DNA from: Candidatus Contendobacter odensis Run_B_J11
GTDB lineage: Bacteria; Pseudomonadota; Gammaproteobacteria; Competibacterales; Competibacteraceae
DNA: 64,000 bases
Reading direction: 5' to 3'
Assembly (NCBI RefSeq): GCF_000531125.1
Contig: NZ_CBTK010000113.1
Coordinates: 1 to 64,000, forward strand
Under the pieces are notes generated by a model. It worked only from the letters and a program-made list of their open reading frames with translations. It was not told the DNA's origin and did no database searches. Numbering within the stretch: the stretch's first letter is position 1; every line of letters begins with the position of its first letter. The position numbers and the translations under genes are program-made. Below are positions 43,483 through 49,194 of the stretch, piece by piece.

Positions 43483-44385
43483 TCAACGGTTCTCCCGGCC
43501 ATGGCGGTGCAGTTGCTCTAGCGGAAATACCGCCGCACCGTCTCCGCGTAGACGGGACCGATTCTGGATCGATCCCCAAGCATGGCCGTAGACCACCTCG
43601 CAACTGACGGGCAGCAGACCATCCGGGCGACGGAACAGTTCGTAGGCGGCCTGCATGGCCCGCAACCGGCCTTTGCCGGTCAGACCACGGGCGCGGCCAA
43701 AAGTGAAGTTGCCGGCACCCAGCGCTTTGAGATCGCGCATCAGTCCGCCTACATTCGAATAGGTCAGGGTCAACCGCTCGACATCCATCACCGGCTCGGC
43801 CAATCGCGCCCGCATCAATGCATCGCCGATGTCATGCATATCAAGGAAGGCGTTGATGTGATTGTAACCGTCGGCTGCTGCCCAACTGCGCCGTAACTCG
43901 ATCAGGGTATCCGGTCCCAGCGTACTGAACAGCAACCCCCCCCCCGGCTTGAGTACCCGCTGAAATTCGGCAAACACCCGGTCAAGATCCAGGCACCAGG
44001 GCAGGGCGAAATGGGAAAAGACCAGATCGCAACTGGCCGACGGCAACGGCAGTGCTTCCGGCTCGGCCACTGCACCATGCAAAGTGCGCAGCCAGGGTGC
44101 CTGCTTGCAAGCCTTTTTCACCAGTGCTGGCGCTAAATCCAGCCCGATCACCCGTGCTTTCCGGTATTTTTTCATCAGCGCCGCAGTGATAGCACCGGTT
44201 CCGCAGCCGACATCCACAATCGTCTCTGGCTGACGTTTAATCAGGTTCAATCGCTCCAGCAGGCGGTTGCCGACCTCGCGATGCAGGAATGCGGCTTTGT
44301 CATAGCCGAGTGCCGCCCGTTCCAAAGCCCGCCGCAATAGTTTCCGATCCAAATCGAAGGGTGCTGCTTCATGATCATCACGCAT
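43483..44385 (-). CDS. bioC: malonyl-ACP O-methyltransferase BioC
   Basis: BioC methylates malonyl-ACP with SAM to prime pimelate synthesis for biotin. The 300-residue product starts MRDDHEAAPFDLDRKLLRRA; the frame extends further only into bioH. SAM motif I is at 58-64 (DVGCGTG), and VFSHFALPWCLDLD and LKPGGGLLFSTLGPDTL follow as in the family. The three Gly codons at 148-150 plus one base form a run of ten G, an unusual homopolymer. It overlaps the bioH stop by eight bases. bioA, bioB, bioD and bioF are not in the window. Confidence 0.93.
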   Translation of the reverse strand: MRDDHEAAPFDLDRKLLRRALERAALGYDKAAFLHREVGNRLLERLNLIKRQPETIVDVGCGTGAITAALMKKYRKARVIGLDLAPALVKKACKQAPWLRTLHGAVAEPEALPLPSASCDLVFSHFALPWCLDLDRVFAEFQRVLKPGGGLLFSTLGPDTLIELRRSWAAADGYNHINAFLDMHDIGDALMRARLAEPVMDVERLTLTYSNVGGLMRDLKALGAGNFTFGRARGLTGKGRLRAMQAAYELFRRPDGLLPVSCEVVYGHAWGSIQNRSRLRGDGAAVFPLEQLHRHGRENR

Positions 44386-45178
44386 CAAGAAATGCCCTGA
44401 GTTCGGCCAGAAATTCCGGCAAGTGGGAAAAGAACGGCGCATGACCGGCGCGGGGAAAAATGTGCAGGCGCGCATTCGGTAGCCATTGCTGGATCGCGGC
44501 GCCGGCAGCAGCAGGAACCAGTTGATCACGCTGCCCCATCAGCAGCAGGGTCGAGCAGACGATACGCGACAGTTCAGCACGCAGATCGGCCTGTTCCAGG
44601 ATCGCCAGCCCGTCTTCCAACGCCGAGACATCCGGTTCGCCGTGCTGGAATAGCATCGTCTTGAGTTGATGTAACTGGGCGGTGGCGTGTTCGCTGCCAT
44701 GGACTTCCAGCGCGATAAAACGCTTGAGCGTAGCCCGGTAGTTCTGGCGCAGTTCCTCGGCGAAGCGACGCAGCACCAGAGGAGCGATGCCGTGCGGCCA
44801 GTCCGGGCGCTGCATGAAGCAGGGCGTGCTATTGACCAGTACCAGTCGGTTGACGCGCTCCGGCGCGGTGATCGCGACCTGCTGAGCCACCAGCCCTCCC
44901 AGCGACCAGCCCACCCAAGTCGCCTGGGGCGGCGTGACCGCGCTCACGGCGGCGCATAAATCGGCCAGGGTATGACCGGTTTCCGACAGACGGCTGTAGC
45001 CGTGACCCGGCAGATCCAGCACCGTAACCCGGTAGTCCTCCAGCAGCGATTTCGCTACATCTTCCCAAACGCCAGCGTGCATGCCCCAGCCATGCAGCAG
45101 TACTATCTCCGGCCCGGAACCGACGGTGTGGCGATAAAGGGATGTTGGAGCAAGGCGGTCGCTGGAATCGTGGCACAT
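44378..45178 (-). CDS. bioH: pimeloyl-ACP methyl ester carboxylesterase BioH
   Basis: BioH removes the methyl ester from pimeloyl-ACP after chain extension, ending the BioC-dependent route. This 266-residue alpha/beta hydrolase has the nucleophile in WVGWSLGG (Ser92), an acid in LMGQRDQLVP and the catalytic His in AGHAPFFSH. The oxyanion region LLHGWGMHAGVW is typical of BioH. Its place directly ahead of bioC supports this over a generic hydrolase. Confidence 0.92.
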   Translation of the reverse strand: MCHDSSDRLAPTSLYRHTVGSGPEIVLLHGWGMHAGVWEDVAKSLLEDYRVTVLDLPGHGYSRLSETGHTLADLCAAVSAVTPPQATWVGWSLGGLVAQQVAITAPERVNRLVLVNSTPCFMQRPDWPHGIAPLVLRRFAEELRQNYRATLKRFIALEVHGSEHATAQLHQLKTMLFQHGEPDVSALEDGLAILEQADLRAELSRIVCSTLLLMGQRDQLVPAAAGAAIQQWLPNARLHIFPRAGHAPFFSHLPEFLAELRAFLDA

Positions 45179-45218: not shown

Positions 45219-46124
45219 CTAAGTCGGGTTGGCCGCTGGTTTTACCGCCGGCTCCGGGGCCACATCCACCGATACATCCAGCGAGTGGGTACCGCCCCCG
45301 GTCATCACCCCTTTCAATGGCGCGACATCACCGTAATCTCGCCCCCACGCCAAAGTGACGTGCTTTTCTCCCGGCATACAACCATTGGTCGGATCGAATT
45401 CCGCCCAGGCGGCGCCCGGTACATACACCGCCAGCCAGGCATGAGACGCATCGGCCCCCACCAGCCGGGGTTGGCCGGGTGGCGGCAAAGTTTCCAGATA
45501 ACCGCTGACATAGCGCGCCGCCAATCCCAACGCCCGCAGACAAGCAATCGCCAGATGAGCAAAATCCTGACAGACGCCGCGCCGCTCGATCAGAACCTTG
45601 TTGAGCGGAGTAGCGACCGTGGTGAAATGCGGGTCGTAGGTAAATTCACGATTGATCCGCCGGTTCAAATCCGCAACCGCTTCCAGCAGAGGGCGGCCCG
45701 GCGGAAAACTCGGCTCGGCGTATTGCCGGAACTTGGCCTGAGCCACCACAAACGGTGAATCGAGTACGAATTGCCGAGCCTCGATAATGTCGGGGTCTTG
45801 CGCGTTCTGCAACACCCCGATCACCTGCTCCCACGATGGCGATGGACTGGAGGCGTTGAACGGGCGCGACTTCAATATCTCCACCTCGGTGGCAACCGTC
45901 ACCACCAAGCGCTGATGAATATCCTGGATGGCGAAGTACAGCGCCCGGTTGCCGAAAAAATCCCACCGTTCGACGGAGAGCGCCGGGCGCGGTCGAATCT
46001 CGATCCGGCTGGGCTGGCAAAATTGCCAGGGAGTTTCCCGTGGCAACAACCGCGCTTCGTTGTGACACAACGCTACACCACTGCTGTAGCGGTACAGGGT
46101 GCGATGGGTGATGGTGTACTTCAT
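45219..46124 (-). CDS. transglutaminase-like protein paired with ATP-grasp gene
   Basis: The 301-residue protein has an N-terminal beta-rich domain (YTITHRTLYRYSSGVALCHNEARLLP, a common transglutaminase N-terminal pattern). A transglutaminase/protease-like core follows, with Cys185 (GVCQDFAHLAI), His228 (ASHAWLAVYV) and Asp244 (FDPTNG). No signal peptide is seen, so it is probably cytosolic. Its start overlaps the ATP-grasp/alpha-E gene stop by four bases (ATGA). From known gene-neighbourhood studies, this trio of domains is predicted to make or cleave peptide amide bonds; the substrate is unknown. Confidence 0.88.
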   Translation of the reverse strand: MKYTITHRTLYRYSSGVALCHNEARLLPRETPWQFCQPSRIEIRPRPALSVERWDFFGNRALYFAIQDIHQRLVVTVATEVEILKSRPFNASSPSPSWEQVIGVLQNAQDPDIIEARQFVLDSPFVVAQAKFRQYAEPSFPPGRPLLEAVADLNRRINREFTYDPHFTTVATPLNKVLIERRGVCQDFAHLAIACLRALGLAARYVSGYLETLPPPGQPRLVGADASHAWLAVYVPGAAWAEFDPTNGCMPGEKHVTLAWGRDYGDVAPLKGVMTGGGTHSLDVSVDVAPEPAVKPAANPT

Positions 46125-48673
46125 GGCCGCATCGTGATCAGTTGCCGGGGGACTTCGGCATGACTGAAATGGCTATGGATCAGCGCATCGGATAGCGCCA
46201 GCAGCGGGCGGTTGAGCGCTTCCAGCAGCCGGGCCAGTTCGACACTGGAATGAGTGCTGTCCTGGGACAGGGTTGCCAGTGCCTCGATGTCGGCCAGTTG
46301 CAAAATAGTGGTGGCCTCCAGGATCAGCCGTTCCTCGGCGCTGCGATAGGGCGAACTGTTATTGGGTCGCTGCAAGCGCCTGATGTTGCGTTGCAGCCGC
46401 TGCAACTGATAGCCGATGGCGCGGGGATTGCCCTCATCAAAGAGCAGCAAATCGATGATTGCACGCGGATGCAGTGCGGAGCGGTAGCGACGCCGATAGG
46501 CGGTCAGATTATCGGTGATGGTGAGTACCACTTCCCACAGGGGCAACCCAGGATTACGGGCGGTGATGAAAGCAAGATTAAACAGGGTCATGGTGTGCAA
46601 CACCCGCTCCAGATAACGCCCGATATCGAAGAACAGCCAGCCTTGATGGTGCGGCATGGTCTCGTTATTCAGACCGCAAAACGCCGTCACCAGCATCAAA
46701 TCTTCTTCGAGCAATTCCCGCGCCTGCCGGGCACCCAACCCTGGCACCGGTTGCTGAATTTGCTGTTGAATCCGGTTCAGCAAGCGCCAGCCATCATCGC
46801 CCAGATGGTTGCGCACTGCCCGCCCGGTGCGCAACATATCACCAAAAATCGTATGCAGGCTGCCGGAATGATCCGATTCCACCACCAGGTTCAACAGCTT
46901 TTGCCGCAGGGTGAAAAAACGGGCGCGCGGTGATTCCGCCACCGGGGGCACTGGAATTTCCAGAGCTTCCAGCAGGTCGTCCAGACAGCGTTCATCGGTG
47001 TTGTCCTGCTCCCATTCCAGCAGTCGCCCGAACGCTTCCCGCAACAGCCGTGCGGTACTGTCCAGCCGCTCGCTGTAGCGACCCAGCCAGAACAGATTAT
47101 CCGCCACCCGGCTAGGCAAGTCGCCCCCATCGCGGGTGACAAAGATGGGGCCGTAGCTTTGCCGTAGCAAGCTGACGTGTTTCTGTGGCGTCGGCGCGAG
47201 TACCCACCAGTCCTTGCTGATCCCGCCCTGTTGCAGTGCGGTTTGCAGGGTATCCAGTCCCGAAGAGACTCGCGCCAGGCCACCCGGCATCACCCGATAA
47301 CCCTCTCCGTCAGCGACCGTAAAACCGCGCAGCATCACCGGTCGCGGTGTCAGCCGCCCATCTTCGAGTACTGGCGCGGTAGAAAGCGGTAACGATTCCT
47401 GGCCGACGAACAGGTGAGGGGTGGCCTGAATCCGATTCACCAGTTGGGCGCGAGCCGCCGCGTCCAGTCGGGCGACTTCCCAATGGGGTTGACCGGGCAG
47501 GATCGAACGAACTACCAATTGATCGAGGTTGTTCAACACATAACCACGCGCATCTGAAGCACCGCACCACCAGGTGGGTAGTGATGGCAGCATTAACGTC
47601 TCGCCTAGTAACTGCTGGCACAGCAGGGGCAGGAAAGCCGCCAGTCCGGGGTTTTCGGCGAGACCGCTGCCAATGGCATTAGCGATAGCGACATGGCCGC
47701 CCCGTGCTGCCTGCAACAGGCCGGGGATGCCCAGCAGCGAGTCGCCGCGCAGTTCCAGCGGATCGCAAAAGGCGTCAAACACCAGCCGCAGGATTACATC
47801 CACTGGTCGCAATCCCCCCAGCGTCTTCAGCCAGACCCGGCCATCGCGCACGACTAAGTCCTCGCCTTCCACCAGGCTGAGTGACAAATAATTTGCTAGA
47901 TAGGCGTGCTCGAAATAAACCGGGCTGTTGGGGCCAGGCGTCAGCAATACCACATGCGGATCTTCAGGGTTATGACGGGCTAACCCCGCTAGAGTGGCGC
48001 GTTCGGTCTCCAGGAAGCTCGCCAATCGGCGCAGCGGCGCATCGCGATAAAGCATCGGCAATGCCCGAGCCAGGATGATGCGGTTCTCCAGCGTGTATCC
48101 GGCGCCAGAGGGCGACTGGCTGCGGTCGCAGTACACCCGAAATACCCCGTCTGGGCCGCGTGCGAGATCCACGCCGTGAAAAATCAGCCAGCGACTGCCG
48201 GTCGGAAGCGATTGGTGACAGGCATGGAGAAAGCCAGGGTAAGCGTAGATCAATTCTGGCGGCAACCAGCCTTGGCGAATCGTGGTGCGGGGTCCGTACA
48301 AATCCACCATCAGCGCATTCAACAACCGGGATCGTTGTTCCATCCCGGCAGCGAGACCGCTCCATTCCTCACCGGTCATCAACAGTGGGATAGGATCGAC
48401 CAGCCAGTGTCGCTGAGCGTTACGCGAGTCGTCATAGGCGTTGTAAGTGACGCCGTCTTCCTGCAACAACCGCTGGACTTCGCTGTGACGACGATCCAGT
48501 TCCTCACCGCCGGTTTCGTCCAGGAATTGCATTAAATCCTGCCAGTGGGGGCGTAGCATTCCGGGCGACGAACACATCTCGTCGTAGCCATCGGTGGCGA
48601 CGGGGTAGTCGCTCAATAGCGAGGCGCTAGGTAGGTTCAGAATGTTTTGACGGGCAACAGAAGTTTCGATCAT
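46121..48673 (-). CDS. fused circularly permuted ATP-grasp and alpha-E protein
   Basis: The 850-residue protein starts MIETSVARQNILNL, with AGGA about nine bases upstream. Residues about 40-500 are a circularly permuted ATP-grasp domain (MLRPHWQDLMQFLDETGGEELDRR, VYCDRSQSPSGAGYTLENR, LTPGPNSPVYFEHAYLANYL, HVAIANAIGSGLAENPGLAAFLP, and SPVL/PRPVMLRGF near the end). Residues about 519-850 are an alpha-E domain (LPSRVADNLFWLGRYSERLDSTARLLR). In other bacteria these are often separate genes. Family knowledge predicts an amidoligase forming a peptide-like product. It overlaps the transglutaminase gene by four bases and follows a cyclic-nucleotide-binding protein gene on the same strand. Confidence 0.9.
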   Translation of the reverse strand: MIETSVARQNILNLPSASLLSDYPVATDGYDEMCSSPGMLRPHWQDLMQFLDETGGEELDRRHSEVQRLLQEDGVTYNAYDDSRNAQRHWLVDPIPLLMTGEEWSGLAAGMEQRSRLLNALMVDLYGPRTTIRQGWLPPELIYAYPGFLHACHQSLPTGSRWLIFHGVDLARGPDGVFRVYCDRSQSPSGAGYTLENRIILARALPMLYRDAPLRRLASFLETERATLAGLARHNPEDPHVVLLTPGPNSPVYFEHAYLANYLSLSLVEGEDLVVRDGRVWLKTLGGLRPVDVILRLVFDAFCDPLELRGDSLLGIPGLLQAARGGHVAIANAIGSGLAENPGLAAFLPLLCQQLLGETLMLPSLPTWWCGASDARGYVLNNLDQLVVRSILPGQPHWEVARLDAAARAQLVNRIQATPHLFVGQESLPLSTAPVLEDGRLTPRPVMLRGFTVADGEGYRVMPGGLARVSSGLDTLQTALQQGGISKDWWVLAPTPQKHVSLLRQSYGPIFVTRDGGDLPSRVADNLFWLGRYSERLDSTARLLREAFGRLLEWEQDNTDERCLDDLLEALEIPVPPVAESPRARFFTLRQKLLNLVVESDHSGSLHTIFGDMLRTGRAVRNHLGDDGWRLLNRIQQQIQQPVPGLGARQARELLEEDLMLVTAFCGLNNETMPHHQGWLFFDIGRYLERVLHTMTLFNLAFITARNPGLPLWEVVLTITDNLTAYRRRYRSALHPRAIIDLLLFDEGNPRAIGYQLQRLQRNIRRLQRPNNSSPYRSAEERLILEATTILQLADIEALATLSQDSTHSSVELARLLEALNRPLLALSDALIHSHFSHAEVPRQLITMRP

Positions 48674-48831
48674 GCATGTTTTCCTGGAGGCAGCCACTGC
48701 AACGCGAGTTGCCAAGCCGCACGGCCCGATCCGAAGCGTCTCTTGCCCGGTGAGGGACGGCGGGCTGCATCAAACCAGCAGTTCCACATGAGAAGTACGC
48801 GAATCCGGGTTCTGGGGGAACCGGGTGGACG

Positions 48832-49194
48832 CTAGTCTTGGAGGCGGGCATTGGCGCGACGCAGCCGGTCGGCCATTACTCGCATGACCTGGAGGGCGAA
48901 CAGCGGAGTTCGCTGGATGAGAGTCAGGAAGTGTTGGCGGCTGACCCGTGTGAGCAGGCAGTCAGTGCGAGCGATGGCAGTGGCGCTGCGCGGTTTGTCA
49001 TCGATCAGTGCAAACTCACCCAACATGCCGCCTGATCCCACCGTTTCGAGGGTTTGTCCACTCATCACAATATCCACTTGACCTTCAGCGACAATGTACA
49101 GGCTGTCGCCGAGGTCGCCTTCGTGGAAAATGATTTGGCCGACAGAGAAGGATTGGTATTCTTCAGGCTTGCTGAACAAATCCGGATTGTTCAT
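48832..49194 (-). CDS. stand-alone cyclic-nucleotide-binding domain protein
   Basis: The 120-residue protein is a single CNB domain with the pattern FSVGQIIFHEGDLGDSLYIVAEGQVDI and GEFALIDDKPRSATAIA, the phosphate-binding cassette with Arg. No helix-turn-helix follows, so unlike Crp it cannot bind DNA alone; it ends in a helix RRANARLQD. It is probably a sensor partner of another protein. It lies 158 bases upstream of the ATP-grasp gene on the same strand, but a functional link is unproven. Confidence 0.88.
   Translation of the reverse strand: MNNPDLFSKPEEYQSFSVGQIIFHEGDLGDSLYIVAEGQVDIVMSGQTLETVGSGGMLGEFALIDDKPRSATAIARTDCLLTRVSRQHFLTLIQRTPLFALQVMRVMADRLRRANARLQD

Follow-up and report, generated by a model that had tools for sequence, protein, structure and literature searches.

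A 64,000-nucleotide stretch of the genome of Candidatus Contendobacter odensis Run_B_J11 (contig NZ_CBTK010000113.1, positions 1 to 64,000 of the forward strand; hereafter the window) encodes a protein in which a circularly permuted ATP-grasp-like domain is fused to an alpha-E domain, followed directly by a transglutaminase-like protein. We found that the residues of the ATP site are lost across the whole class of such fused proteins, a conclusion well supported by the aligned sequences, and on this basis the fused ATP-grasp domain is predicted not to bind Mg-ATP in the usual manner. An initial annotation of the window, made from its sequence alone, had taken the fusion for a ligase in a possible peptide-making system. 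That the fusion itself is a ligase is unsupported, because the Mg ligands, the Gly-rich loop and further residues invariant in stand-alone ATP-grasp paralogues are missing. We consider it rather probable that the fusion acts as an accessory, pseudo-ATP-grasp subunit to an intact amide-ligase module and that its catalytic partner is the transglutaminase.

The gene for the fused protein occupies 46121..48673 on the minus strand, as do all parts of it given below, and comprises 850 codons from an ATG. The open reading frame reaches 48715 if a TTG start is taken (46121-48715, 864 codons). We adopted the ATG at 48673 because homologues support it; residues are nevertheless numbered here from the upstream TTG, so that subtracting 14 gives the numbering of the 850-residue protein. 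The ATP-grasp-like domain covers residues 110-484 (47264..48388; PF14403, CP_ATPgrasp_2, E 3.1e-135) and the alpha-E domain residues 533-850 (46166..47119; PF04168, E 2.2e-63). The reading frame and the two Pfam matches thus bear out the fusion as it was first described. The transglutaminase-like protein, of 301 amino acids, is encoded at 45219..46124 on the minus strand (PF08379 Bact_transglu_N, E 2e-23; PF01841 Transglut_core, E 5e-20). Its ATG shares four nucleotides (ATGA) with the TGA stop codon of the fusion gene, which upholds the translational coupling proposed for the pair. Close relatives of the fusion, 79-82% identical, include Candidatus Contendobacter proteins, and the name given to fused proteins in public annotation is 'circularly permuted type 2 ATP-grasp protein'.

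We aligned 121 fused proteins, which span Proteobacteria, Planctomycetes, Acidobacteria, Poribacteria, Verrucomicrobia, Gemmatimonadota, Myxococcota and other groups, with 61 stand-alone ATP-grasp paralogues. In the stand-alone proteins, the Mg-ligand Glu and the residues at the positions of Asn198, Asp461, Asn493, Lys356, Gly409 and Gly410 are each present in 61/61. The erstwhile Mg-binding motif (residues 181-212; 48080..48175) reads VYCDRSQSPSGAG in the window, compared with VLEDNLRVPSGVS in the stand-alone proteins. Its Glu survives in 1/121 fused proteins (Cys196 in the window) and its Asn in none, with Arg taking the place of the latter in 109/121 (Arg198 in the window); Asp183, the D of the D..E-x-N motif, is retained in the window and in 99/121. 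The erstwhile Gly-rich ATP loop (residues 402-414; 47474..47512) has become RSILPGQPHWE where the stand-alone proteins have KPxNESGGYGM, the longer stand-alone stretch LVVKPxxESGGYGM being aligned with LVVRSILPGQPHWE in the fusion. Gly409 and Gly410 are missing from most fused proteins, and the Lys403 position, still Lys in 71/121, is Arg in the window. In the C-terminal active-site strands (residues 457-504; 47204..47347), PRHVDLRPF and VVNSSQGGGSKDTW of the stand-alone proteins read PRPVMLRGF and LQTALQQGGISKDWW in the window; Asp461 is found in 0/121 fused proteins and Asn493 in 1/121. The stand-alone DDK has been replaced by ENP in the fusion. The fusions of the actinobacterium Tsukamurella and of Enterobacter and Sinorhizobium have lost the ATP site identically. 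The sole fused protein with the Mg-ligand Glu (L124:5418-8036), in which the Asn is absent, is possibly an intermediate form or a reversion.

The ATP-site residues have equivalents in E. coli glutathionylspermidine synthetase (GspS), namely D318, E330-x-N332 and K533-P with a Gly-containing loop. YgiC and YjfC are alike, the motif in all three being D-x(11-12)-E-x-N. A profile alignment between the ATP-grasp family and E. coli GspS was not significant, although its best aligned piece was the Mg motif; the residues were therefore mapped by that motif, by spacing and by the shared fold. In glutathione synthetases, Mg and the phosphates are held by such acidic residues together with lysines (PMC2845819).

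The fold itself is preserved. An AlphaFold2 model of the fusion (mean pLDDT 88) superimposes on 3n6x, a stand-alone ATP-grasp protein, with Z 40.4 and rmsd 3.1 over 445 residues, and on GspS, YgiC and glutathione synthetases with Z 20-24 (20.4 for GspS, 2io8); for comparison, a stand-alone paralogue gave Z 46.4 to 3n6x and 20-26 to the others. The alpha-E part of the model had no convincing structural match in this comparison, the best (Z 9.1, rmsd 7) being usual for helical bundles. Conservation within the fused class is distributed very unevenly. The Gly-loop block is the most variable of those compared (entropy 2.56 bits, versus 0.72 bits in the stand-alone proteins), while the lowest entropy (0.60 bits, against a whole-domain mean of 1.63 bits) belongs to the erstwhile Mg block, which now reads DRxQAPSGxG. 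The ER motif of the alpha-E domain is present (E703-R704; each residue in 73/75 fused proteins), as is the triad of the transglutaminase (C185-H228-D244; conserved in 112/114 rows). In a tree of 114 proteins, a single branch (SH-aLRT 100) separates the fused proteins from the rest. Since the fold, the Mg block, the ER motif and the triad are kept, the Gly-loop drifts and the fused proteins share one branch, the class looks like pseudoenzymes whose site was put to a new use, and most simply it arose once.

The most conserved block also lends some weight to a different reading, in which the rebuilt site, where Arg has replaced the Mg-binding Asn, accommodates a different ligand and catalyzes an ATP-independent or nucleotide-altered reaction; so low an entropy is beyond what decay of a passive scaffold leaves. 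However, no new conserved catalytic dyad is evident in the fused proteins and the loop that would close over a nucleotide is their most variable part, and we judge such a change of chemistry unlikely.

The genomic context of the fusion fits an accessory role. We surveyed 120 fusion loci from many phyla and found a related transglutaminase gene within 150 nt of the fusion in 113/120; this shows that the pairing is not due to chance. Five of the 120 loci had no detected transglutaminase, four of them being cut by contig ends. In one further locus (L042:3408-5898), the fusion and its transglutaminase lie about 2.5 kb apart, the only such gap among the loci and likely an insertion. The usual order in a full locus is stand-alone ATP-grasp, alpha-E, DUF2126-transglutaminase, fusion and transglutaminase, and an unfused ATP-grasp gene was present in 47/120 fusion loci even though many of the 120 are incomplete. 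An Enterobacter roggenkampii IncFII plasmid (L190, NZ_CP116251.1) carries exactly this five-gene cassette with IS26 nearby; thus, the system can move horizontally. Several loci (L086, L089, L099, L103 and others) have in tandem a second, different transglutaminase gene, often just before the gene for the proteasome-like peptidase Anbu, which suggests that the transglutaminase subfamilies have separate jobs.

We also surveyed 299 genomes of the phylum, 156 of which encode alpha-E and 85 the fusion; the counts that follow are raw, with shared ancestry uncorrected. Three apparent fusions among the weakest matches (G042, G097 and G157) were left out of the 85 and read as adjacent separate genes because each contains stop codons in frame and a single alpha-E hit. 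In 85/85 fusion genomes, alpha-E was present in two or more copies. Genome G164, which had appeared to hold two fusions without an intact copy, was rejected as such a case, as an ATP-grasp and alpha-E pair adjoins one of the fusions. DUF2126 occurred in 74/85 fusion genomes, compared with 8 of the 71 genomes with alpha-E but no fusion (odds ratio 53), and Anbu in 45/85 compared with 54/71 (odds ratio 0.35). Anbu is nearly always accompanied by alpha-E (99/100 Anbu genomes). These co-occurrence counts show that ATP-grasp and alpha-E are a shared core, to which Anbu on the one hand and DUF2126 plus the fusion on the other are partly alternative modules.

All five components are present in the source genome (4.6 Mb, 99.5% complete, 319 contigs), although not in one locus. 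The fusion and its transglutaminase, in the window, stand apart from the other three. On contig C188, a stand-alone ATP-grasp gene, truncated by the contig end and retaining the Gly-loop and the ATP lysine, is followed directly by a second alpha-E gene. A DUF2126-type protein is encoded on contig C248, again cut by the contig end. These two contigs are probably neighbours, because in relatives the gene for the large DUF2126 transglutaminase adjoins that for the stand-alone ATP-grasp in divergent orientation. In sister genera (L046, L049) and in many further lineages, the five components are found together. The source genome also has a second DUF2126 protein of 752 amino acids (L183:10232-12490; G000:C113, ~108.2-110.5 kb), about 60 kb from the fusion; it has no recognised transglutaminase part, is diverged from canonical DUF2126 (361 bits) and is flanked by comF-like and phosphoglucomutase-like genes. 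A further stand-alone transglutaminase-like gene on contig C86 (L005 / L185, ~3.4-4.3 kb) adjoins a pyruvate dehydrogenase E1 gene, and no ATP-grasp or alpha-E gene was found near it.

The placement of the intact module on other contigs in the source genome, together with the fact that the tightest linkage of the fusion is to its transglutaminase, down to the start-stop overlap, would also fit a holdase or chaperone of the transglutaminase alone that acts independently of the intact ATP-grasp module. This seems less likely still, given the second alpha-E in all 85 fusion genomes surveyed in the phylum and the unfused ATP-grasp genes within fusion loci.

We infer the accessory role of the fusion, its docking, its ligand, the substrate and the division of labour along the following lines. 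A pair of ATP-grasp and alpha-E genes would have been duplicated and fused, apparently once. The Mg-ATP site has been lost, whereas the glutathione-synthetase-like fold and the alpha-E core are retained, as is a strongly conserved patch, apparently repurposed, at the former Mg site. The fusion may serve in trans an intact amide-bond-forming module encoded in the same genomes, composed of the stand-alone ATP-grasp, alpha-E and DUF2126-transglutaminase proteins, whose ATP-grasp would activate a carboxylate and join it to an amine, as its fold relatives do. Docking on the intact complex would occur through the alpha-E domain and the emptied cavity. The ligand of the fusion might be the peptide or its carboxylate, with an anion rather than a metal facing the conserved Arg198, and the co-translated transglutaminase would cut, transfer or proofread the amide bond. 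A bolder form of this proposal, which we offer tentatively and regard as possible but doubtful, is that an ancient pseudoenzyme clade extending from Proteobacteria to Planctomycetes, Acidobacteria, Poribacteria and Actinobacteria converted a lost ATP site into a conserved ligand site, so that the fusion is a receptor presenting the ligase product to a dedicated transglutaminase within a five-protein system that makes and breaks amide bonds.

Several points weigh against an accessory pseudo-ATP-grasp. The pseudoenzyme status is deduced from residues, and some enzymes stay active with altered sites; weak nucleotide binding by fused proteins is possible because the Lys403 position is still Lys in many of them and Asp183 persists in most. 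The physical interaction of the fusion with the intact module is likewise something that we infer, and when the unfused Anbu operon was co-expressed with Anbu as bait, no specific interactions were found (PMC6376114). Also, a few draft genomes of the window's family show the alpha-E of the fusion alone, among them G008, which is 96% complete. That the fusion is after all a working ATP-dependent ligase, making or attaching short peptides together with the transglutaminase, is nonetheless improbable: the full-length Pfam match, the preserved fold, the Lys kept at position 403 by 71/121 relatives and the release of phosphate from ATP by the unfused ATP-grasp of the Anbu operon (PMC6376114) speak for it, but the Mg ligands, Gly-loop, Asp461, Asn493 and DDK are gone from essentially all fused proteins, the window has Arg for Lys403, and the genome holds a stand-alone copy with Gly-loop and lysine.

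No Anbu was found in the source genome with a profile that matched Anbu in 100/299 genomes of the phylum, in agreement with the initial annotation, which had seen none in the window. The only proteasome-family match (PF00227), considered as a hidden Anbu, is HslV, as it adjoins HslU. The missing Anbu is no anomaly, because the fusion tracks the DUF2126 transglutaminase rather than Anbu. Upstream of the fusion, at 48832..49194 on the minus strand, lies a gene for a 120-amino-acid protein consisting of a lone cyclic-nucleotide-binding (cNMP-binding) domain (PF00027, E 4.9e-23), which had been put forward as a possible regulator. Most of the window's closest relatives have it next to the fusion (59-89% identity); sister genera with an adjacent DUF2126 transglutaminase do not, nor does it occur there in other lineages. 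We therefore rejected it as a general partner. Only part of the window's family conserves it in this position, so that it is a lineage-specific neighbour outside the conserved system, and what stands of the proposal is that it may be a local, at most lineage-specific, regulator. We looked for a sigma-54 promoter of the fusion and transglutaminase pair because in Burkholderia cenocepacia NtrC activates the corresponding unfused genes and two transglutaminases under nitrogen limitation (PMC5491218); the window showed no enrichment of sigma-54 sites. On the other side of the pair, the start of bioH lies about 40 nt beyond the transglutaminase gene, and bioC comes next (43483-45178). BioH and BioC were rejected as partners, as this neighbourhood was found in one congener (L054) only and not in other relatives.

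Neither the domain families nor the predicted system is new (Iyer et al. 2009, as cited in PMC6376114 and PMC5666114). In the literature searched, which did not extend to Iyer et al. 2009 itself, we found no account of the loss of the ATP site throughout the fused class, nor of the constant second alpha-E in the sampled phylum genomes or the link to DUF2126 over Anbu. The annotation as 'ATP-grasp protein' implies that fused proteins are probable ligases; if they are pseudoenzymes, screens of the fusion for activity will fail, and the protein pair to aim at is instead stand-alone ATP-grasp plus alpha-E, to which the fusion would be a partner. A screen of the fusion and transglutaminase pair for ADP release dependent on amino acids would probably be negative, because the ATP-grasp domain is without the Mg ligands, the Gly-rich loop and other invariant residues, yet such a result would not disprove a role in the system. 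The links to the second alpha-E and to DUF2126 divide a long-unsolved predicted peptide system into an intact core and two partly alternative modules, a division that suggests which proteins to purify together.

Among the known systems close to the fusion is the stand-alone ATP-grasp (PF14403, COG2308; PDB 3n6x) with its separate alpha-E. The two have the same fold (Z 40.4), their ATP-grasp parts are about 35% identical and in both ATP-grasp precedes alpha-E, but the stand-alone system has separate genes and a complete ATP site, whereas the fusion is one gene with the site lost. Since the fusion keeps their gene order, this argues that ATP-grasp and alpha-E touch in the unfused systems as well. 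The predicted Anbu operon, composed of Anbu, ATP-grasp, alpha-E and transglutaminase (Iyer et al. 2009, as cited in PMC6376114 and PMC5666114), has the last three families in common with the fusion locus, which substantiates the kinship with predicted peptide-making gene sets noted at the outset. The operon differs in containing Anbu, which the source genome lacks, the fusion keeping company with DUF2126 transglutaminases; moreover, the transglutaminases linked to the fusion are only ~28-39% identical to those linked to Anbu. The E. coli peptide-spermidine ligases GspS, YgiC and YjfC have an ATP-grasp fold like that of the fusion (Z ~20-24) and retain both the D..E-x-N Mg motif and the K-P Gly-loop, whereas the fusion has neither and carries an alpha-E domain in addition. 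Finally, bacterial transglutaminase-like proteins (PF08379 plus PF01841; PDB 3isr) have the same domain architecture and Cys-His-Asp triad as the window's transglutaminase, which, unlike them, is genetically tied to the fusion.

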